A DNA stretch of 64,000 bases from the NCBI RefSeq assembly GCF_000003815.2, contig NC_049988.1, forward strand, positions 1,964,678-2,028,677, in the 5' to 3' direction. Under the pieces are notes generated by a model, which was given only the letters and a program-made list of their open reading frames with translations, made no database searches and was not told where the DNA came from. The translations under genes and the position numbers were made by a program. Shown here in pieces: positions 15,001-57,687 of the stretch (the stretch's first letter is position 1; each line of letters opens with the position of its first letter). The DNA comes from Branchiostoma floridae. Lineage: Eukaryota > Chordata > Leptocardii > Amphioxiformes > Branchiostomatidae.

Positions 15001-18000
15001 TTCACAGGAATTGATTTTGTATTTGTGCATTTAGAAATTGCAATGTTTAGAAATGTATCATAAAACTATTACAGTTATGAATTGCCTAGTTGTTGAATAT
15101 CACTGTATTTATATATATGCCTGTATTTGAAGATTGCTATTGGAAAGAAATGATACCGTTTACAATGGATCACTCCTACCTCTAGTACTTTAACGATATT
15201 ACGAATAGCTACTATAGCATTTTAAAGATTCAATATCAAACTGTACAAACTAATAATTAAACAACCAAATTATGTACAACTTACGCTACAGCCTTCGCTT
15301 TGCCACAGGTGGGTGTGGTTTTCTTCGAAGTAGACACATGCTGTCTCGAATGCGTACAGCGTAAAGTTGACGATTTCTCCGCTGGTTTGATTACTTCCAG
15401 GGCCGAATCGAAGTCCTGTCATTAAAGATAAATTTGACGAGTCGAGATAAATAAATCTAAGATGACAAACTCCAGGGCAATGTATATGTTAATTCGATGG
15501 TACCGATATGCACAAACGTGAATCAATCTTAGTATTATGGTATCTTCATTATCATAAACAGGATAAAATATTCATATGATTCGGATGGAATATTTCTATA
15601 TCTTACACTGATAGGGCACCATCGTTTGAGCTTCCTGATGCTATGACGAAGAATTTCACATTTCCATAGTGCAAAATATTTTAGTCGTACATTTTGCAAT
15701 GTTGAGGTTTAAAATCCATGGCTCAAGTCAAGTATGGTCATAGTACTAATTGTAGATCTGAATAAAGCCAGTCAGTACTGTCGGAATGCCATGATCGGAT
15801 GAGCTTGTAAAATAATAAAAAGTAATACCGATGTAATAGCCAGTCTTGTCGTCCGACTCCACATCGAGGTCTGTAATGGCAATCTCATCTTCTGGCAACA
15901 GCCACTGATAAGCACTTGATTTCAACGATGTTCCATTTATCAATGGGACGGTGAAGATCTCCTCGTCTGGAACTGGCAATGTGGTTGTCCAATCATGGGT
16001 ATCTGGTGTTGGAGGCTCGTGTTTTCTCAACCAAACGGTGACGTCATGCGGGAAAAGGGTGCTGTTAAAATCCAGGCTGAACCTCAGCGACAAAATGTTC
16101 CTCTTAGCACTGACATTAAAAATCTGGGGAAAGATAGCTTTTTCTCCTACCATCAGTTTACCCAACACCAATAGACACTAACAAGGCAGATTGGTCTAAA
16201 AACACACTATACCGGGCTGAGCCAGTCTTGAAACAGTCTTACTTAATGTTATTGGGTGGTCAAAGGGACTAGAACAGTCTTGCCTTGGTGTGCATTGTTT
16301 CTGTGTAGATGCCAAGGGTTGAAAACCAACTTCACACCTAGGTAACATGTAAATGGGACTTCACACATCAGTGTAATTTATTCATTATTGATATACGTAG
16401 CCGCACAAAGAAACACTCACCTGAGTGTTGACACCTCATCCATGAGGTGTAAAAACAATAGGACTCAAAAGGGCTGACTTTCTTATTGTGTTCTGTTGCA
16501 AAGTAAACCCATCTGGTTCCATTTAATTTCTTGCATAGTCAGATAAGAAGTGAACAATAGTAGTACCTTCATTTAGCCACTTTAACCACCCAATAACAAT
16601 AAGTAATACTGTATGTTTTCAGACCAGTCTGCCTTGGTAGTGAGAACACCAGTACTAAACATAGAAATACCAGACCACACTGTCTTATCAAAGTTATGGG
16701 CACTGTAGAGTTCTACGTCTGCATAGGAATTTACCAACCACCACTGAAGAATGGCGTGTGGTATAAATTACTAATACTAATTACTTGCTGACGTCAGATA
16801 ATAAATGAGGTTAGTCAGTAGACCTTAATTTAAGACAGCTGGAAATACAATGTGTAAATCTTCAAACTCTGAAATCTATACTACTATTTCATTTTGTCTA
16901 CTTTGCCCCTTTGAGTATCTAGAGCTTTAGCTTAAAGCTAAAGCTAAAGCTAAAGTTGCCATGCATCACATTGTGATGCGTAGGCCCGGCACCCATCTCC
17001 GTTTTTAAGCCCTGGGGTCAAGGCATGATGCCTAGGTTACACATAGCCGACTTTGGCTCCCGAACACTAGCCGACTCTTAGCCGACCCAAGTTGGCAGTA
17101 GTTCGGGAGAAGTCTGACCAGTTTAGGCCACGCCTTTTTTTAGCGCCGAACACGTCCCGAACATGACTTAACCATCTTCCGACCAGTAAATGACTTACTC
17201 CCGACTGTGTCCCGAATGTTGTCTTACCTATTCCCTACCATGCCGACCTCTAGCCGCAGACAGCCGAATCTGTCTTGACTGATTCCCAACCGATTGCCGA
17301 CCCTCTCACGACTTGAAATAGACATAATCAGCGATTTTTAAAAGAGTGGTCATTTTAGTTTCTAATCAAGATTACCATTTCTTCTATTTTGTAAACATCA
17401 GCAAAAGATCAAATTTGGATCACAGATAGCTCCAATGCGGCATTTATGGTTCTTTTTGCTTGGGGCTGGATGTCGGTCGTGTGAAGTTCGGGGGTGATTC
17501 GTCTACGTCCTGGTGATATTCTTTTTGCTTGGGAACGAGTTAGCAGAGATTTGTCTACGGTCTTGGGGTGAATCATTGGTAAGTTGGAAACAAGCTGTGA
17601 GTAAGTTAGCAGTGTTTATGGCGTGGTTAAGCTTTGATTTATCTGCTGACTTACTCCGGAACACCAACCGAACACTAGCCGACCGTGCCGAACACCAGCC
17701 GACCACCAACCGACCAATTCCAGAGTTGCCGTTCAGAGCCGAATGTTTTGAACATTTCAAAACATTCGGATGGAGCAGCCGAACACCAGCCGTCTCAGCC
17801 GAACGCCAGCCGACTCAGCCGAATGCCAGCCGACTACAGCCGACTAGCTCCCGAATCACTCCTAAACCATAGTCGGGAGAGAGTCGGGAGCCAAATTTGG
17901 CTATGTGAAACCTAGGCATTAACCAATGTAGTAATTAACCCTCAAACCACTGTAGCTTTTTTTCGACTAATCTTACCGTATGGCGTCAAACACTTTTATT

Positions 18001-21000
18001 CGGTGACTTATACTACATATATACAAACAAAATCATGGGAGGAAATTTGTTTTCGACACGAAATGCCATAATGACACATATTGATATACGTCTGGGATCA
18101 GTTTTGACCCCCATACGGTGGTTTGAGGATTAAAGATGAAACATACCGATATGTCGCCAAGTCGTGAAGATGAAGTAAAGATGTCTATCCATCCATCTAG
18201 ACTTTTGTTTTCCCTTCTCGTCAGGATGTCTATTGGCTGACTTTGGCCAGAAACAGAAATGGTCGAGTTGCCACATTTGACCGAGAGGCCCGTGACATCC
18301 GAATTGATTATTCGAGAATTGTTTGAATATTCAAACGGGTTGAAAGTAGATTCCAGAAACTGCAATTAAAGGTAAACTGGGTTAAGACGATGGTAAATTA
18401 GCAAGTTATTAATTGTCTCCGATCTGTCAGAGCTGTATAAGGAGATAAAGTGCATATGGAGTGTCTATAAACAGCTAATAAACCACCAAGTGATTATTAT
18501 TGACCAGTAATTAACGCTCGACGTCCTTATGTATGAACCCATGTTTATAACATTATGGTTTTTAGCCAATAGGGGGAAGCTTCTTACACGTAGCCTAGTC
18601 ATATGACAATCAGTCATTTTTTAGTCTTTTTAGTTTCGATAATTGATAAATGACACTTGTTGCATTGTAACATCAGGATCGTTGTATCAACGGCATCGTT
18701 CGGCAAAGAAATTTTTCATTGTATTTTATTACCACATCTACTTTATTCAGAAAAGAATAACGCAAAATCTTCAAGCGACAAGAAAACATGCAAGTTATGT
18801 GTATTCATCACACAGTTTAATTCCTTGCAGACTGTATACGGTAACAAGCAAGAGTCTGTCTGTTAAATTCCGTGGAACACACAGGTCCAGGAAACCGAAA
18901 CAAAGTCATTGAATCTTTGATAATTATATTATTATTAAATTAGATAAGATTTACTGTTACAAAATTAAGTGGTGGCTCGTACCTGCACCCCAACCGTCTC
19001 TCCGCCGGGGCAACTATCTCCTACGAGTGATGAGAAGGACGGCACGTGGACAAACGAGTCGCTCACACCCGCCACTGTATACAGCTTCTCAGAGGAGTCA
19101 CCGGGGTCTTCTCGTTTAATTCTCACCTGCATCTGTACAGAGATAGATAATATATCTCTATTATCCACCTGTGTTATTTTAAGCGAATTCATTTTTCGTA
19201 TTCAAAGCTAATTGTGAATCTAAATAAAGTCAAGTCAAAGCTTCCTATTAATAATATGGACAACCCTGATGTAAACGTAGATATTGGTGGTATGACGATG
19301 TGAAATGATATCAACATCTCTGTCATCAGTGTTTTAATTATGTTATGTTTCGAGCCAATTAGAATTAGAAAGAATACAAAAATTGCACAGCGATATACAT
19401 TTTTCAGACTGTGGCGTCATGTGTGACGTAACTGGTAGAGTGTTAGACTCGGAACCTAGAGGTCCTGAGTTCGATACCCGACGTTGTGGAATGGATTGGA
19501 AAGGCACTTTAAATGACCTTCTTCACTTCACCCAGATGTAAGAATGGGTACCTGACTTCGGTCGGGGAGGTAAAACACTACATTTACCTTCTGTCTGTCC
19601 TTTGTTCATGTGGCACTGTTAGAACATTTACTAACTTGAGTGCAAACAAATATGTAACTTTTCAGAAAATTCATTGACAGGAAAAGATACCCCTTTGAAG
19701 TACAAACACAGCCAATATTATTTGACGTGACATTTAAAAACAATAGTACCTTGGATGTATAGACATCCACATATAGATCTTCGTCATCGTAGGCTGGCAT
19801 CATATTAATCAGATAGATGTCGTCAAGAACATCTAAGGCTTGGAAGGTTCTTGTAGTGGCCTCCTTGTTCTGAAAAAGCACAAAAGACTTACCACAAGTG
19901 TTACCATAGGCGCTCAATTGTCAGTATTCTGTGAACGGAAGGTTACGTAAATTGAGCATTTATCAGGATTTTAACAAGATTTAACAAGTTAAACGGACCA
20001 TAAAGAGTTGATATATTGTATAGAGAGGGAGATACGTCGAAGCTATTAAGTCAGTAATAATATATTGATATCGTGTCATTCAACGATTCAGCAAATATTA
20101 AACGACATGCGATTTCTCTGTGAGGTACGGATCTCTATGCAGCTTGGTGTATTGAAGGATTGTACTTTTTGGATTGTAGTGATTGGAACAGTCTTATGCC
20201 TAGGTTACACATAGCCGAATTCGGCTCCCGACTCTCTCCCGACTATGGTTAGGGGTGATTCTGGAGCTAAGTCGGCTGTAGTCGGCTGGCATTCGGCTGA
20301 GTCGGCTGGCGTTCGGCTGAGTCGGCTGGTGTTTGGCTGCGCCATCCGAATGTTTTGAAATGTTCAAAACATTCGGCTCTAAATGGCAGGTCTGGAAATG
20401 GGTTGGTTGGTGGTCGGCTGGTGTTCAGCAGTAAGTCAGCAGTCAGTTTTAACTGCTTAACCAAGCCATAAACACTGCTGACACTCCCAGTTTGTTTCCA
20501 ACCTACTAACGACTCACCCCAAAACCGTAGACAAATCTCTGCTAACTCAATCTCAAGCAAAATGACTATTACCAGGACGTAGGCGAACAACCCCCTTACT
20601 TCACACGACCGACATCCAGCCCAAAACAGAAAGAACCATAAATGCCGCATTAGAGCTATTTGTGATTCAAATTTGATCTTTTGCTGATGTTTACAAGACA
20701 GAAGAAAGGATTATTTTGATTTTTAAAAAATGGCCACTTTTTTTGAAAATCGCTGATTATGTCTTTTTCAAGTCGTGAGAGGGTCGGCAATAGGTTGGGA
20801 ATCAGTCAGGAGTGATTCGGCAGTCTGCGGCTAGTGGTCGGGATGGTTGGGAATAGGTTTTCATTCATAAGTTAGCATTCGGGACACAGTTGGGAGTAAG
20901 TCATTTATTGGTCGGGAGATGTACGGGACATGTTCGGCGCTAAAATATAGGCGTGGCCTAAACTGGTCAGACTGCTCCCGAACACCAGCCGACCTGAGTC

Positions 21001-24000
21001 GGCTAAGGGTCGGCTTGTGTTCGGGAGCTAACTTCGGCTATGTGTGACCTAGGCATTATGAAAATATATGTATTTGTCGTGTATATGTTTGTTCGTTTGT
21101 TTTTCTTTGCCTACCGCTTCCAACATGGCGGGGGAGCCTACTTCACCCTCGTGCTCGAGCTTAGCCGATACTTCAGAAGCTTTGAACACCTGGACAGCGC
21201 CTAGAATGGTGTAATAAGGTATGTTGACAATAAAGCAAGCCCTTCATGTTTGATATAAAGCATGTGCATCCTGCAGAAATATAAATGACAGCGCCTGACA
21301 TGTTTGTTAATGAAACGTCAATAACCCACACCAATGTGCTTAGAGTTACGTGTCCCATGGAAAGTGACAAATGACTACTGAATAAACTACCGAGTGAGAG
21401 AAGACAATTGAAATATTAAAATACCATAATTAATTCTACGCTATTCGTCTGTATCAATCCGTGGTTATGCATTTATGGCTTTATAAACTTTAGAAATGGA
21501 GGCTGGTTAGTGACTGAATGACGTCAAGAGTATTGTCCTGCGTCTCTTTATGTAACGAATTATGAAAAGTGAATTGAACATCGCACACCTCAAATTTACA
21601 TTCTAAGTGCAAAAGTAGCGGTAAAGTGGAACTATAATGCATAGCTGAAACCCCCAAACATATATCAAAAAGGGAAAGCTCCAGTTTATATAAAAGTGCG
21701 TACACATGTTACGCAATATCTAAAAAAATGTTATCAATGTCGATTGCACACCTGTAAATATGAATGCAGTGGCGATGTTCACCTCCTCCACGGTTAGGCC
21801 GTTATTTTCCGACAACTCTCTTAACTTCTCGAATGCATGTTCAAGAGAGATGGAACTGAATACCTGCATTGAAGTAAATATGAGTTCTTATAAAAATATT
21901 ATGTATGTTTGTATGCATTTCTATGTAAAAATAAAAATCTATGCGAAAAGAATTGAAAGTATAGCCATACTTAATTACCAATATGCCATATATATGTGTG
22001 TGTAAGTGATATCTGGTAATTAAGTATGGCTATATTTTCAATTCTTTTCGAATAGATTTTCATTTTTACACAATGTTTTTTAGGGCAAAATTGCTATGTA
22101 CTATTTGTCTTACCTTAATTTGACCATGATCATATTTCATTCTTTACAGGAAGGGGCATGTATTATTTGTTATACTTTATCACCAAACAGGTAGAGGTGG
22201 GATATGTTTATTGCATTTTGACCCCGAAACAATAGGGATAGGAGGGAATTGTGCTGTTTGAACTAAAGGACATTTTAATTTCTGAACATGGTTTAAATGC
22301 AAATCTGAAATACATTTGAATTAAGTTAAAGAATATCTATTATTGTACATTTAAAAAAATACATGTTAGGATTTCAAGTTTGTTTGAATTTAGTTAGGTA
22401 TTTTCTAGATATATTGAAAGTGGCTTTAAGGATATCTTTACTGAAAATAATCTGAAAACATCTGTGTGTATTATTTAGATTATAGATTTTATTTATTGCC
22501 CCCATAAAAACAGGTATAAATTCGACCTTACTGTCTGACTTTGTATATTTTCAGATTTCAATGCTGGGCACTGATAATCCCTTTGTGATAAGCCATTAGA
22601 CATTGGTTTCATTTTTTCGGCTATAGAATTATATTAGCGAGTTAAATGATAAGTAAAAATTTCGAAATCAGGGTTTGTATATTGTTCTTAAACTAAATGT
22701 TAGCACTTACTTGTGCATTACCAGACACAAACTGTGGAAATGCTGTCACTAATAAAATAGAGTTTGCCAGTCCTATAATTCCGTCATAGTCCTGTAGTTG
22801 TGTGTTTGCCATATCCTCAGTCACTTTGTCTGTAAACTAAAGGATAAACAATAGCAACATTAATGATATACAAAGGTTACACATTTTAAAATGATAATGA
22901 TTATCAAATTATACAACTGCAAAAGAATAATTCCCAAAGGCTAATTGGAAACAACGTAAAACATTGAATTGTATACTTAACGAAAAGGATAATTTAAAAT
23001 AGTAGTAAATTAAAAGAGAATCGAAATTTTTTTAAAAGAATTCTAAAAATATTTGAAGAGATTTTGCTTCTTTTTTCGTATGCAGTGCGAGATCAAATTA
23101 TCATTTATATACATAAACTGGTTGGACGACTTCAGCAAAAATATTATTTTTCTCCTGGTCGGTAAGATGTGAATAGTTTTTACAAATTTTGCAAATTTAT
23201 AGGTCTTAAGACCATTCTTCCTCTTTCAGAACTGTATCATTAACATTCTTCAAAAAATTGAAGTTGATATTTCATTGCTTTCCCTGTATAGTATTTAAAT
23301 ATCCTTTCGTAAATTGGCGTTTTTTGTACCTGCTCTTTTTTACAAATCAAGCGAACGATACATAAGACATACCACATAATGTACAAGTCTATTAATACAG
23401 CTTAATGATAATCTAACTTAAAAATAAAGTATTGATAACGATAAAAGATCTTATACCTCACTGGTGTCATCCCCGTTGATGCCCAGGTAGAGTATAACTC
23501 CGGATGCCACCTTCGTTATACCGAATGCATTCTCCGAAAAACCATTGAACAACAGGTTGTAGAAAGTCCCTGCTTGACTGTCGAATTCTTTCGTGTATGC
23601 GAGCAAAAACTCATATTCGGGGGCTTCGATCTAAAAGTGGTTTTAACACAAGCACAAAAAAAGTTCAGGTGAGATGATTCAACTGATTCTTTCTCTTCCT
23701 TTCATGTATTTTCTTTGAAAGAAAAGCATTATATTCTTAACGAAAAATTCCTGTTTTCCTCTATCTGTTTGCAGAAAAAAACGGACTATTACGATCTAAA
23801 ACATGTAAACAACACAACGTAACTCAATATATGCAACCGAAATATAACCATTCACTTACGAAAATTGGGTCCATTAAGATGGTAGTGTTGCGTCCGTCGG
23901 TGCTTGCTACAGACACTTCTATGTTTATTGTACCAGGAACAATGTCCAACATAGGTGTGTTGAACACCTAATTTCAATGACAAAAGATTTCGAGTCAGTT

Positions 24001-43399: not shown

Positions 43400-44071
43400 A
43401 AAATTTTACTTGAATCTTGTTACCAAGTATCTAATGCCTATCTATACCAAATTTCAGGTCATTTAATTGTAATACCAGGGTACAGGAGCCAAAAGTGTCC
43501 TTTTTTGGTCAAAAATTGGCCAAAAATCGCAAAAATAAGCATTTTGTTGCACTGTACACCAAAAGTGTTATTGAATTTATATGGGGGCATTATCAAGGCA
43601 TATCTCTGTCAAATTTCAGCTCATTTGGTTGTAATACCAGGGCACAGGGGCCAAAAGTGTCCTTTTTTGGTCAAAAATTGGTCAAAAAATCGCAAAAATA
43701 AGCATTTTGTTGTACTGTACACCAAAAGTGTTATCGAATTTATATGGGGGCATTATCAAGGCGCATCTCTGCCAAATTTCAGCTCATTTGGTTGTAATGC
43801 CAGGGTACAGGGGCCAAAATATACAATTTTGGTCTAAAATTAACCAAAAAATCTCAATAAAATCATTTTATAGGCAGATATGAAAAAAACTGAGAAAAAA
43901 AGCATCAAGGTATTGGCCCATTCTACCCCTGTGCCAAATTTCAGGTCATTCGGTCCAGGAACGGCGGAGATGAATCACTTTGAAGATTTGACAGGAGAAA
44001 GAAAGAAGAAAGAAGAAAGAAACATTACGAATACAATATATTTCACCATACTATGTATGGCTGAAATATAA
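43400..44071 (+). repeat. 162-bp-period tandem repeat array 1 with 3' hairpin end
   Basis: The motif CAAATTTCAG recurs at 43448, 43610, 43773 and 43935, spacings 162, 163 and 162 bp. Each unit then carries GTAATACCAGGGTACAGG-like and TTTTTGGTCAAAAA-like blocks. The array ends with GAAGATTTGACAGGAG, an A/G-rich stretch and the hairpin CACCATACTATGTATGGCTG before AAATATA. Because 162 is a multiple of three, a 196-codon open frame runs through it; I treat it as a by-product, not a gene. Confidence 0.85.
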
Positions 44072-44279: not shown

Positions 44280-44997
44280 ACCAAAAAAATCCCCAAATAT
44301 ATCATTTTGAAGTAGTTTATGACAAAAATTATACATGTGTCATTTGAATAAATATCTAGTGCACCCTTTTACCAAAATTTAGGTCATTTGGTTTTAAAAC
44401 CAGAGCACCAGAACCAAAAGTGTACGTTTTTAGTCATAAAATGGCCAAATAATCGCAAAATTAAGCATTTTGTTGTACTGTATACCTCAAGTGTTAATGA
44501 ATCCATGTGCGCATATGTCTAGGGCACTCCTATACTAAATTTCAGGTCATCCGGTTCTAAAACCAGGGTACAGGAGCCAAAAGTGTCCTTTTTTGGTCAA
44601 AAAATGACCGAAAAATCGCAAAAATAAGCATTTCGTTACACTGTACACCAAAAGTGATATTGAATTTATATGGGGGAATTATCAAGGCACATCTGTGCCA
44701 AATTTCAGCTCATTCGGTTATAATACCAGGGTACAGGGGCCAAAATATACAGTTTTGGTCTTAAGATGACCAAAAAACATTAATAAGATCATTTCAAAGG
44801 CAGTTATGAAAAAAAATGAATAAAATGTCCAAGGGTATTGGCCCACTCTACCCTTGTGCCAAATTTCAAGTCATTCGGTTGAGGAAGAACGGAGATACCG
44901 TGTTCCGAAGATTTGACAGGAGAAAGAAAGAAGAAGAAACATTACGAATACAATATATTTCACCATACCTATGGTACATGGTATGGCTGAAATATAA
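44280..44997 (+). repeat. 162-bp-period tandem repeat array 2 with 3' hairpin end
   Basis: Homologous to the array ending at 44,071. The key motif occurs near 44372, 44535, 44699 and 44860, spacings 161-164 bp. It ends with GAAGATTTGACAGGAGAAAG and the hairpin ACCATACCTATGGTACATGG followed by TATGGCTGAAATATA. The two arrays are head-to-tail, so this may be a duplicated element. Confidence 0.82.
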
Positions 44998-47424: not shown

Positions 47425-48283
47425 TATTCTACCGAGTGCAAAACCCGCAGACCCTAAAATTTTATAAGATACTATTCCAAGTTAGTTAATGTTTGCTTCC
47501 TTTTGTTCCACACCACGTAACAACATTGCTTTTCTAACCCTGAGACAACCTATCAAAGTTCCCTGGCGCAAAACACGCGGAACTATTGTGTTGTAGCAGT
47601 CATAGTGTGGACTACAGGAAGTTATTGATAAAAAATACCATCTGGCCAGAGTGCCTTGGGCAAGTGACGAGCTCCTCTTCCTGATACCAAGGATATAATC
47701 TCCTTTTGATATCCGGGATTGAACCTCCTAGGTGATACTGAGACAAATTTCCACCTGCCAGCTGACACTGCGGCCCCCCAGGAGATTAAATGGGAAATGA
47801 AAGCTAGATATGTGGACAGTGCCGTGTATATAATGTTTGTTAATGCATGATGGCCTATGCTAAAGAATAACATAATATTGAATAGTGTATTGCCCTTTTG
47901 AAGATGTAAAAAAAAACATGTCACTTGCACCACGGTGACGACTTTACACATGGCTGCTTGATATTTCCCAAATTGAATCTTGCTTTCCAATGATCGATGT
48001 CAATGCTTTTATTTCGGTGAATTTGATCGATGTGCTCGCTTACTACATTCTAAATCATACATTTTGTGAACACCACCATACGAACATTTTAGCAAATAAA
48101 GTCTATATAACTTCTTTTTCACATTTTGGCTAAAGTCGTGGAGATAGATCAATACTACGTGTCTGTCATTATAAAGGGTTGTGGGGAGGGCATGTCGTTT
48201 AAAAAGAGTACAGTGGGTTGATATCGTGGGCACTTTTTTCTTACATCTTAGTGGAGTGAGGAAATTCTCAATGACACAAGGTC

Positions 48284-48507: not shown

Positions 48508-48515
48508 TTTTTTAT
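48508..48515 (-). promoter_or_regulatory. AATAAA polyadenylation signal overlapping the LRR stop codon
   Basis: On the minus strand the gene ends CCC AAA TAA AAA, so the TAA stop is embedded in AAATAAAAA, which contains the AATAAA signal. If used, the mRNA would have almost no 3' UTR. Other AATAAA sites downstream could be used instead. Confidence 0.4.
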
Positions 48516-51500
48516 TTGGGATCCTGTCCCATGGCAGCCCCTAGTGTACATGTGTGCGTGTGTGGAGGTACCTGCGCAGGTGTGTTATGGGTTCTCTCCT
48601 CTGCCTGGTATCTCTCATAGCCAGTAGGTAGTGTGACAATGGGAGGGACGCACGCCTTGGTGTGGTACGGGACACATTCTCTGGGGTGTGCCATGGCCAG
48701 TAGGTGTTTGGTAGTGTGACAAGGGAAGGGACGCACGCCGTGGTGTGTTACGGGTTCCCTTCTCTGGTATCTCCCATGGCCAGTAGGTGTTTGGTAGTGT
48801 GACAAGGGGAAGGGACGCACGCCGTGGTGTGTTACGGGTTCCCTTCTCTGGTATCTTCCATGGCCAGTAGGTGTTTGGTAGTGTGGCAAGGGGAAGGGAC
48901 GGACGCCTTGGTGTGGTACGGGACACATTCTCTGGGGTGTGCCATGGCCAGTAGGTGTTTGGTAGTGTGACAAGGGAAGGGACGCACGCCGTGGTGTGTT
49001 ACGGGTTCCCTTCTCTGGTATCTCCCATGGCCAGTAGGTGTTTGGTAGTGTGACAAGGGGAAGGGACGCACGCCGTGGTGTGTTACGGGTTCCCTTCTCT
49101 GGTATCTTCCATGGCCAGTAGGTGTTTGGTAGTGTGGCAAGGGGAAGGGACGGACGCCTTGGTGTGGTACGGGACACATTCTCTGGGATGTGCCATGGCC
49201 AGTAGGTGTTTGGTAGTGTGACAAGGGGAAGGGACGCACGCCGTGATGTGTTGCGGGTTCCTTTCTCTGGTATCTCCCATGGCCAGTAGGTGTTTGGTAG
49301 CGTGACAAGGGGAAGGGACGCACGCCGTGGTGTGTTACGGGTTCCCTTCTCTGGTATCTCCCATGGCCAGTAGGTGTTTGGTAGTGTAACAAGGGGAAGG
49401 GACGCACGCCGTGTTGTGTTACGGGTTCCCCTCTCTGGGATCTCAAATGGGCATGGAAAATGGGCCTTTAGTTTTCTATTACGAGTCTTATACAACACAA
49501 TACAATCACCTTGTCTGACTTCCTTGGGCACCTGGTATGCAGCAGTACCTCTTTCATTAGTAGAACGGCGATTCGGTACAGTCGCAGCATCGTTGCCCTG
49601 ATATAGTCTCTGGTTGTTCCCAGTCCTTGTGATTGTAGGAAGCGATGGCTCGGCAGCAGCGCTGTAAAAGCGGGTAGTTTCGCATTCTGGATCGTCAGAA
49701 GGTAGTAGAGCGGGCAATGACCAACAGGAAGCTGCATTTTGGTATTCTTGTGGCGTATGTGGGAGGGTAGGTAGGGGCCGCTGTGCAGCAGCGATGTGAT
49801 CTGGGATTTCAGTATACAGATGTGGGAGGCTGCACGTATGTGGGAGGGCAGGTAGGGGCCGCTGGGCAGCGGCTAGATGATCTGGGATCTCCCAGTAGGT
49901 GTGTGGGGGATCATCGGTGGATTGAATCGCCCGCAGATCTAAAGGCATTGCCGTACACGAGACAAGACCTGGTTGTCTTCTTCCTTGGCCGTTAGCAACA
50001 TTGTTCTGAAAGGCGTTGTTTCGTACCTTCAACAGAAAGGCTACAAAGAGTATTAAGGATAGAATCCCCACCATTGAGACAACGACTGGGACGAGAATAG
50101 GACTTGATTCTGTGTGTGGGTCATCCGCAATGGTCAACAAAGTAACAGTCTGCAGTGTAGACACAAATGACATTGTGGCTTGGACCGCAGTGAGAGTCGG
50201 GGATTTTTGGTCTTCTAAACTCGTATGAGGGACTGATGTCAGAAATCCAACGTCGTCTGTGTCATCACTGCGTGTGGGGCATGCTTTCTGGGGCTCTTTT
50301 GGGACTGAGGAAATGTTGAATGTCATGATAGATGGGTTTAGTTTGGAGAGAACCATGCAGGGTATCTTCTTCGTGTAGCCGGTGCTTGCGTGGATACCGA
50401 CTGTCCTTGTGTCCTTCGTGATGTCAAACAGAATGGCAACATCTGTCATGGTTGAGTTTCCTACACCCACAGATACTATTTGAACGACTGAGTTATCATC
50501 AAAGGCCACAGTGATACCGGCATTGTGTTCCCATACTAGTCTGCACTTATCTGGATAGTGTAGGGCCAGCTCGTATGGGGGAGCGTCGGTAGCGATGACA
50601 ACAAACCGGGGCAAACGGACGATCCTTTGCGGAGATAAGTGCGAACCGATACACAGCTCGGGAAAATCTTTTGATTCGTGACTAGGTACGCTCTGTTCTG
50701 AATCAAAGCTCCACGCAAGGGACTTATTCAGTAGGCCACTTGCGACACAGAGATAGAAGTGTGGCACTTCGACTGCGATGATCTGTGTGTTCGGGATGGT
50801 GTGTTTATGTATGGCAAGACTCCATACCATTTCATGTGGCGTTGTATCATACACTGTCATCAACCTGTCACCACCGACGCGCAGGTTTGACTCAAACTGC
50901 GACACCCGTGATAACCCCCAGTCTAGACAAGACAGAGGATTTTTCTGTAGGTTCAATTCATGGACAAGCATATCTTCGAACGCGCTTGGAAAGAGGCTTG
51001 CGATGTCATTTCCTCCCAAGTATAGGTACACCAGCATGGACAGTTCAAGGAACCAGTCAGAGTCTACCACCTGCAGCAAGTTGTTCTCTAGGTTCAGCAC
51101 GAAAAGTATGGACATATTTCTGAAGCAGCCAGGGTCAATCTTTGCTATTTTGTTATTGGACAAGCCCACATAACTGAGCTTGTCTACGCCAGTGAACCAA
51201 CGCTGCTTGACATGAGTCAACCTGTTGAAATCTAGACTCAACTTCTGGAGATGGCTATTCAGGGTGCCTTCCTCCACGTCTGTGATTTCGTCATCTAACA
51301 GGACCAGGGTCTCTACAGGGGAGTGGACAAATGGCTTCAACTTCTCTGTTGACAAAACGCCTAATGGATAACGTCTTATTGCGAGAGTTTTGTGACCCAG
51401 ACAGGACACTGTGCGATCGCCACGACTAGTATCGACACTGACCATACTTTCCTCCTGACCAGCACATAAGATACACGTACCTGGTGGGTTCTTAAAGTGC

Positions 51501-51640
51501 ACTGCCATTGCCTCATGCAAACATTCCAACCAACCAGCTCTGTTACACGGAAGGAAGCAGGGGTCTGACCAAGCTGCGCAGGCAGTCACCAGGATCAGAC
51601 AAGGAAGCGTCACCCTGACAAGTTCTCTCTGGAGAGCCAT
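48512..51640 (-). CDS. Intronless LRR transmembrane receptor with Pro-rich repeat tail
   Basis: One uninterrupted frame of 1,042 residues. Residues 1-23 are a signal peptide (LPCLILVTACAAW). A Cys-rich N-cap follows (Cys 28, 32, 40, 56, 59). Residues 108-235 hold about five or six LRRs with LxxLxLxxNxL spacing (LQKLSLDFNRL, LSYVGLSNNKI, LFVLNLENNLL, LVYLYLGGNDI, HELNLQKNPL). Residues 236-510 are an unrecognised ectodomain with N-glycosylation sites. A membrane helix lies at about 513-538 (ILVPVVVSMVGILSLILF). The cytoplasmic tail holds two EIPDH.AAAQRPLP.LPHT units, a polar stretch and, from residue 733, ten 28-residue repeats. LRR-transmembrane proteins without a TIR domain are expanded in lancelets and are usually taken as recognition or adhesion receptors; the ligand is unknown. 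Start: the ATG at 51640 precedes a perfect signal peptide. The tail has no kinase, TIR or death domain. Confidence 0.9.
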   Translation of the reverse strand: MALQRELVRVTLPCLILVTACAAWSDPCFLPCNRAGWLECLHEAMAVHFKNPPGTCILCAGQEESMVSVDTSRGDRTVSCLGHKTLAIRRYPLGVLSTEKLKPFVHSPVETLVLLDDEITDVEEGTLNSHLQKLSLDFNRLTHVKQRWFTGVDKLSYVGLSNNKIAKIDPGCFRNMSILFVLNLENNLLQVVDSDWFLELSMLVYLYLGGNDIASLFPSAFEDMLVHELNLQKNPLSCLDWGLSRVSQFESNLRVGGDRLMTVYDTTPHEMVWSLAIHKHTIPNTQIIAVEVPHFYLCVASGLLNKSLAWSFDSEQSVPSHESKDFPELCIGSHLSPQRIVRLPRFVVIATDAPPYELALHYPDKCRLVWEHNAGITVAFDDNSVVQIVSVGVGNSTMTDVAILFDITKDTRTVGIHASTGYTKKIPCMVLSKLNPSIMTFNISSVPKEPQKACPTRSDDTDDVGFLTSVPHTSLEDQKSPTLTAVQATMSFVSTLQTVTLLTIADDPHTESSPILVPVVVSMVGILSLILFVAFLLKVRNNAFQNNVANGQGRRQPGLVSCTAMPLDLRAIQSTDDPPHTYWEIPDHLAAAQRPLPALPHTCSLPHLYTEIPDHIAAAQRPLPTLPHTPQEYQNAASCWSLPALLPSDDPECETTRFYSAAAEPSLPTITRTGNNQRLYQGNDAATVPNRRSTNERGTAAYQVPKEVRQGDCIVLYKTRNRKLKAHFPCPFEIPERGTRNTTRRASLPLVTLPNTYWPWEIPEKGTRNTPRRASLPLVTLPNTYWPWEIPEKGTRNTSRRASLPLVTLPNTYWPWHIPENVSRTTPRRPSLPLATLPNTYWPWKIPEKGTRNTPRRASLPLVTLPNTYWPWEIPEKGTRNTPRRASLPLSHYQTPTGHGTPQRMCPVPHQGVRPFPLPHYQTPTGHGRYQRREPVTHHGVRPFPLSHYQTPTGHGRYQRREPVTHHGVRPFPCHTTKHLLAMAHPRECVPYHTKACVPPIVTLPTGYERYQAEERTHNTPAQVPPHTHTCTLGAAMGQDPK
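48610..49445 (-). repeat. 84-bp coding minisatellite with 3-unit higher-order structure
   Basis: Ten tandem units encode EIPEKGTRNTPRRASLPL plus VTLPNTYWPW (28 residues). Units 4, 7 and 10 are a distinct type (NVSRTTPRRP in unit 4), giving a higher-order block of three units. Single-base deletions in a G run (GGGAAGGG instead of GGGGAAGGG on the plus strand, near 48,969 and 48,719) make each block about 251 bp, not 252, and shift the reading frame. The second part therefore reads HYQTPTGHG and the last part HTTKHLLAMA. All three frames of the unit are stop-free, so the ORF survives both shifts. Confidence 0.95.
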
Positions 51641-56604: not shown

Positions 56605-57687
56605 CTAGAAAGGCCGACATTTGCTTAGGAGCAAATACAGCATATTGCAATCCATCTTCATCCTTGAAAAAATCCCAAAATTCAACAATTTGAAGTAATG
56701 TTTGCTCAAAGGGAAAATGAAGTACTGTGGGCACTTGTCCTACACACCTTCATGCCGAATTATAGGTCATTTGGTTTCAATATAAGGGCATAGGAGCCAA
56801 ATATATACATTTTTTAGTTAAAAATGACTAAAAATCCCAAAATAACTCATTTCATAAGTGCTCTATGAAGAAAGTGTTGATGGGGTCCTGTTGTCATATG
56901 TCCAATTTACCTTTGTACCAAATTTCAGGTCATTTGGTTTACAAACAAGGGCAAAGAAGCCAAAAATATACATTTTTAGTCAAAAATGACTGAAAACCCC
57001 AAAATAACTAATTTTTGAAGTGATCTATGAAGAAAGTGTCAATGGGGTCCTGTGAGCATATATTCAATGCACCTCTGTACCAAATTTCAGGTCATTTGGT
57101 TTCTATACAAGGGCATAGGAGCAAAAAATATACATTTTTAGTCAAAAATGGCCAAAAACCCTGAAATAACTCATTTTTGGAGTAAACAATGAATAAAGCG
57201 TTGATGGGATTCTGTGGTCATATGTCAAACGCACCTATGTACCAAATTTCAGGTCATTTGGTTTTAATACAAGGGTATAGGAGCCAAAAATATACATTTT
57301 TAGTCAAAAATGGCCCAAAACCCTAAAATAACTCATTTTTGAAGTAATATATGAAGAAAGTGTTGATGGTTTTCTGTGCTCATATGTCTAATGCACCTCT
57401 GTACCAAATTTCAGGTCATTAGCTTGTAATACCAGGGCACAGGGGCCCAAAATATACATATTTTGTCTAAAAATGACCAAAAACCCTAAATATCATAAAT
57501 TCTAAGGCCTCTATCAAGAAAGTGAAAAAAACGTCTGGGGGTATTTGCTATTTCTACCACTCTGCCAAATTTCAGCTCATTTGGCCAAAAAATGAAAAAA
57601 TTAATCCCATTTGAAGATTTGACAGGAGGAGAGACAAAGAAAAAGCAATATATTGCAATCCCATACTATGTATGGATTGCAATATAA
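56605..57687 (+). mobile_element. Near-complete hairpin-ended repeat element with 162-bp tandem core
   Basis: Starts with the family tip (AAAGGCCGACATTTGCTTAG, stem-loop) followed by CATATTGCAATCCAT. The core has CAAATTTCAG at 56919, 57081, 57243, 57405 and 57566 (spacings 162, 162, 162, 161). It ends with GAAGATTTGACAGGAG, then ATTGCAATCCCATAC, TATGTATGGATTGCAATATA. The end motif is the reverse complement of the start motif and also forms a local hairpin. Other copies in the window carry TTTCAGCC/GGCTGAAA in the same places. No protein of its own; non-autonomous. Confidence 0.8.

Follow-up and report, generated by a model that had tools for sequence, protein, structure and literature searches.

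A minisatellite read in three frames at the end of an LRR receptor tail in Branchiostoma floridae

The receptor gene and its tail array

The window, a 64,000-nucleotide stretch of B. floridae DNA (NC_049988.1, positions 1,964,678 to 2,028,677), contains an 84-bp minisatellite inside a candidate receptor gene. The longest ORF around the minisatellite runs on the minus strand and contains the array without an internal stop. The profile search identifies an LRR domain in this ORF, with both LRR_8 (1e-22; best stretch, residues 129-189) and LRR_1 (7e-06) over the cut-off, and IGFALS, LRRC15 and LGR4 are the top solved matches by E-value among the best 60 of 106 matching sequences. On hydropathy only, residues 7-25 form a candidate N-terminal signal peptide and a strong single segment at 519-537 is the predicted transmembrane span. 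The tail that follows has about 500 residues and ends with the minisatellite. Four candidate tyrosine motifs, HTYWEIP, HLYTEIP, EYQNA and AYQVP, were picked by eye from the tyrosine list of the tail and may be ITIM-like or of another type. The features are as follows.

51640..48512, minus strand: uninterrupted ORF of 1042 aa, predicted LRR transmembrane receptor (ORF, LRR profile match and hydropathy)
49754..49906, minus strand: upstream tail with two older tyrosine/proline motif copies, TYWEIPDHLAAAQRPLPALPHT and LYTEIPDHIAAAQRPLPTLPHT, from which the minisatellite unit may derive (translation and local DNA match)
49391..49453, minus strand: U0, degenerate first copy, frame A, FEIPERGTRNTTRRASLPL
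48972..49390, minus strand: U1-U5, frame A, VTLPNTYWPWEIPEKGTRNTPRRASLPL type; a CCCC to CCC change on the coding strand leaves U5 at 83 bp
48972..49222, minus strand: higher-order repeat copy 1, U3-U4-U5, 251 bp (period 251)
48721..48971, minus strand: higher-order repeat copy 2, U6-U7-U8, 251 bp, frame B, SHYQTPTGHGRYQRREPVTHHGVRPFPL type
48645..48720, minus strand: U9, truncated divergent unit (GTACC, not GTAAC), sole unit in frame C
48559..48644, minus strand: U10, degenerate final copy; a base is lost at its junction with U9, then -7 and +4
48511..48516, minus strand: AATAAA hexamer that includes the TAA stop (48514-48512); candidate poly(A) signal

The receptor stop lies inside this hexamer, so that little 3' untranslated sequence may follow it; a second AATAAA starts at 48013.

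Tandem Repeats Finder reports the array with a period of 84 (9.8 copies, 48627-49444, score 1307), which is outscored by a period of 251 (3.2 copies, 96% matches, score 1477). The nine units U1-U9 occupy 49390..48645 on the minus strand, at the far end of the receptor tail, and start on the coding strand at 49390, 49306, 49222, 49138, 49054, 48971, 48887, 48803 and 48720, respectively. Three of them are shortened: U5 and U8 to 83 bp, and U9 to 76 bp. The two 251-bp blocks, U3-U5 and U6-U8, differ at a single base of 251, and the loss that turns CCCC into CCC sits at the identical place at the end of both (U5 and U8), while it is absent from U0-U4, U6 and U7. Since the loss is common to two near-identical blocks, one loss followed by one duplication is the simplest account, and two independent deletions at this shared site are less simple.

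The near-identity of the two copies would also fit a false duplication, and tandem repeats are described, in the excerpted source, as a known origin of assembly errors (PMC6868369). It is conceivable, though in our judgement unlikely, that the 251-bp duplication or the loss of single bases is an artefact of sequencing or assembly and that the true allele is read in one frame throughout. However, the C run is only four bases long, and an artefact would have to strike the same place of both blocks while sparing the other units. Furthermore, when both copied losses are undone, the reading still exits the array shifted and stops at 48543, 10 codons before the present end, so that correction yields no obviously better gene.

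Reading frames through the array

The ORF uses all three frames within the array: U1-U5, which start at codon phase 0, are read in frame A, U6-U8 in frame B and U9 in frame C, after which the reading returns to frame A. The original prediction had placed one-base shifts after units 6 and 9, and these correspond to U5 and U8 if the degenerate U0 is counted. The accompanying change of peptide along the array, from VTLPNTYWPWEIPEK... to SHYQTPTGHGRYQRRE... and then to HTTKHLLAMAHPRECV..., is likewise confirmed, and this allele does draw three peptide readings from one DNA unit. The original prediction overlooked a third one-base loss, where U9 meets U10; this loss restores frame A, and the -7 and +4 changes within U10 cancel modulo 3, such that the ORF also ends in frame A. 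The tail therefore consists of five units plus flanks in frame A, three units in frame B and one truncated unit in frame C. It is worth noting that U10 owes its frame to the three losses together, so that it is no proof of A as the ancestral exit frame and is ambiguous as evidence on that point.

The proposal that the 84-bp unit has no stop in any frame does not hold. The common unit gives CCG-TAA-CAC when read in frame C; the TAA is present in the consensus and in five of the nine units (U1, U4, U5, U7 and U8), and variants at positions 53 and 55 remove it (it is missing in U2, U3, U6 and U9). The feature is less special than claimed, because the common unit carries a stop in one of the three frames. 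The reading enters frame C only at the end of U8 and keeps it across U9, and the ORF escapes the stop because U9 is of the divergent type. Frame B is free of stops in all nine units and, as read now, has three units with YQTP and two with RYQRR.

Whichever frame the reading leaves the array in, a stop follows 9 to 43 codons later. With the array ending near codon 999, the three exits give proteins of 1008, 1032 or 1042 aa.

That the array goes untranslated as read, being 3' untranslated or spliced out so that its frame is irrelevant, seems to us scarcely probable. Amphioxus 'mirage' minisatellites do sit on exon-intron borders according to the excerpted description (PMC3087553), but here a single 1042-aa ORF crosses the array without a stop and U0-U5 continue the receptor frame.

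Chance openness and limited buffering

The openness of frames A and B is ordinary, near what chance provides. In our chance model, the U1 protein was fixed and codons were drawn in 200,000 recodings according to codon usage in the part of the gene upstream of the array. Of these synonymous recodings of U1, 37% have an open frame B, 28% an open frame C and 10% both. Fully open units arise from U1 when its bases are shuffled (3.4% of cases), its codons permuted (8.2%) or its synonymous codons redrawn (10.5%), frequencies that refer to a property U1 itself does not have, given its frame-C TAA. Among the 84-nt windows in the non-repeat part of the ORF, 46 of 692 leave both other frames open. The shuffle, permutation and recoding frequencies do not support selection for keeping the alternative frames open.

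The idea that such an array buffers the gene against slippage was explored by simulating every one-base loss and gain in U1-U9. The reading stays open to the array end in 456 of the 1492 cases (106/746 losses and 350/746 gains), but stops inside the array in the other 1036. Part of the idea does stand, as indels in U1-U4 run further before a stop, with a median of 78 codons (672 simulated) compared with 24 in the unique tail (residues 540-700; 960 simulated) and 12 in the ectodomain (residues 30-500; 2820 simulated). This longer run makes the array more forgiving than unique sequence, yet no general buffer. Buffering is limited and partial, as expected from a repeat with two open frames.

Copy-number changes were also thought to swap the C-terminal peptide. 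Among 90 duplications or deletions of whole-unit runs, 30 do lead to a different exit frame, but 32 keep both frame and terminal peptide and 28 stop inside the array. The addition of a 251-bp block (U3-U5 or U6-U8) gives a protein of 1019 aa, 106 residues under the expected length, through a frame-C TAA, and the removal of one block leads to a different exit and 924 aa. The feature is real in this sequence, and the advantage proposed for it is mostly unsupported.

YxxP is an SH2-docking pattern. Slippage could in principle act as a functional frame switch, replacing YWPW units (frame A) by HYQTP/RYQRR units (frame B) that offer candidate tyrosine docking sites. The stop-free frame B and its YQTP and RYQRR motifs would suit such a role, and the excerpted source describes an LRR receptor of amphioxus whose tail inhibits in a tyrosine-dependent manner (PMC8211107). 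We nevertheless consider this function improbable: the frame-C stop in five of nine units and the many unit-block and one-base changes that end inside the array count against a switch, and chance alone opens frame B in more than a third of recodings. Very improbable, in our view, is the further suggestion that the array is a heritable frame switch, in which the same receptor would carry YWPW-type, YQTP-type or truncated tails among individuals of a highly polymorphic species and recombination would tune signalling. It would draw on the net -1 length of the 251-bp block, by which each block gained or lost puts everything distal into the next frame.

Possible origin of the unit and a proposal of tolerated frame drift

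The unit may have been copied from the tail's own TYWEIPD motif, a derivation that is supported but not strong. Local DNA alignment matches it to the older tail motif at 49906-49881 save for a 6-base gap, with a score of 31 that none of 1000 dinucleotide shuffles attained (best shuffle, 30). The match is confined to the first of the two older motif copies, and the six extra bases in the unit turn YWEI into YWPWEI.

Variation among the units provides a weak lean to frame A. When the 18 variants in U1-U9 relative to the consensus are each scored singly and entered once, frame A has 7 synonymous ones, frame B 4 and frame C 3, against expectations of approximately 4.8, 4.7 and 5.1 (about 27, 26 and 28%); with counts so near expectation over 18 variants, constraint on any frame is weakly shown. 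A hand count of the variants private to U1 or U2 finds 4/5 synonymous in A, 1/5 in B and 0/5 in C, which makes A the likely original frame of the proximal units.

We propose that the three-frame reading reflects tolerated frame drift at the far end of the tail, spread by minisatellite turnover, and assign this a probability of about 0.62. The distal cytoplasmic tail of the receptor would have grown by turnover from a frame-A coding unit, in a single copy of which one C was presumably dropped from the CCCC run. Unequal exchange or slippage would then have duplicated the 251-bp block together with the loss, such that one mutation acts twice, and a third one-base loss at the array end would complete the passage from A through B and C back to A. 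The array lies at the extreme C-terminus, two of its frames are open and each exit soon meets a stop; the LRR part, the membrane span and the proximal tyrosine motifs consequently remain intact in any frame. Selection on the distal peptide is for this reason probably weak, and the frame changes would have been tolerated rather than selected. In favour of tolerated drift we count the loss shared by blocks that differ at 1 of 251 bases, the reading of U0 and U1-U5 in frame A, the mostly frame-A-synonymous variants private to U1 or U2, the closely spaced protein ends of the three exits and the frame-C stop in 5/9 units, together with the length instability of an amphioxus gene minisatellite, and its unequal repeat numbers in two haplotypes, in the excerpted report (PMC3087553). 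The end-to-end openness of the array counts against it: when a doubled one-base loss is tried at each position of U3-U5, the array is open from 31 of 252 places, and the other 221 placements would not give an open path. The weakly shown constraint and the ambiguity of U10 are further points against it.

The locus is a small but clear illustration that a higher-order repeat whose length is not divisible by three can carry and multiply a frameshift, the frame beyond it then depending on the number of blocks. Should block number vary among alleles, the locus would reveal how much the sequence of a receptor tail matters. Coding repeats open in three frames were reportedly regarded by Ohno as immune to frameshift; the lesson of this array is that 'open in all frames' needs checking in every unit type.

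The closest parallel is the MUC1 VNTR, for which the excerpted accounts describe a base gained in the C run of a single unit, which leads to a new repeat protein, the ADTKD frameshift (PMC5843638), and MUC1-ARF, the product of an alternative start (PMC5074479). As in the receptor, a coding minisatellite is open in a second frame and the shifted peptide ends shortly past the array (PMC5843638, PMC5074479). In MUC1, however, these are a disease allele or an alternative start on a 60-bp unit, whereas in the receptor the sequenced allele itself shifts three times in the distal tail and one loss appears to have been copied by a higher-order repeat. According to the excerpted sources, -1 frameshifts also occur in dentin phosphoprotein repeats (PMC2803795), and in SRD5A1 three frames of one long stretch are translated, which goes with resistance to frameshift variants (PMC13352861); SRD5A1 differs in being a human gene with three nearby AUG codons, while the receptor array has two frames open throughout.

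Within amphioxus, the excerpted text on gene minisatellites reports two haplotypes of a globin gene that differ in repeat number and an unstable minisatellite in Adh3 (PMC3087553). These 'mirages' of the Adh3 and globin genes resemble the receptor array as unstable gene minisatellites homogenised inside and not at their borders (PMC3087553), but they span exon-intron borders, whereas the receptor array is contained in a single ORF. Two proteins of Branchiostoma belcheri, BbLcLRR and FrLRR, compared by description only, are likewise amphioxus LRR transmembrane proteins; the excerpted descriptions make no mention of a tail minisatellite, and FrLRR, unlike our receptor, is said to be without a cytoplasmic tail (PMC8211107, PMC10199209). 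Among the matches listed from the open-licence literature on amphioxus minisatellites, LRR tails and multi-frame repeats, we recognised no published account of this locus, nor did the open-licence matches listed include a description of an allele whose frameshift is multiplied by a higher-order repeat. By blastn, 48512-49445 matches none of the plasmids searched, the outcome to be expected of an animal gene.

Other repeats are present in the window. The arrays at 43440-43869, 44370-44777 and 56764-57490 have periods of 162-163 bp and consensus units that are alike by eye, and are probably one satellite family. A large inverted repeat (17024-17845 / 20270-21060) comprises five arm pairs, 83-94% complementary, with 2424 nt between the innermost arms and mirrored 20-bp tandem repeats in the inner arms; it looks like a foldback-type element. 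Lastly, a 285-aa ORF on the minus strand at 3340-4197 matches PKD_channel (2e-36) and is part of a polycystin-type cation channel.
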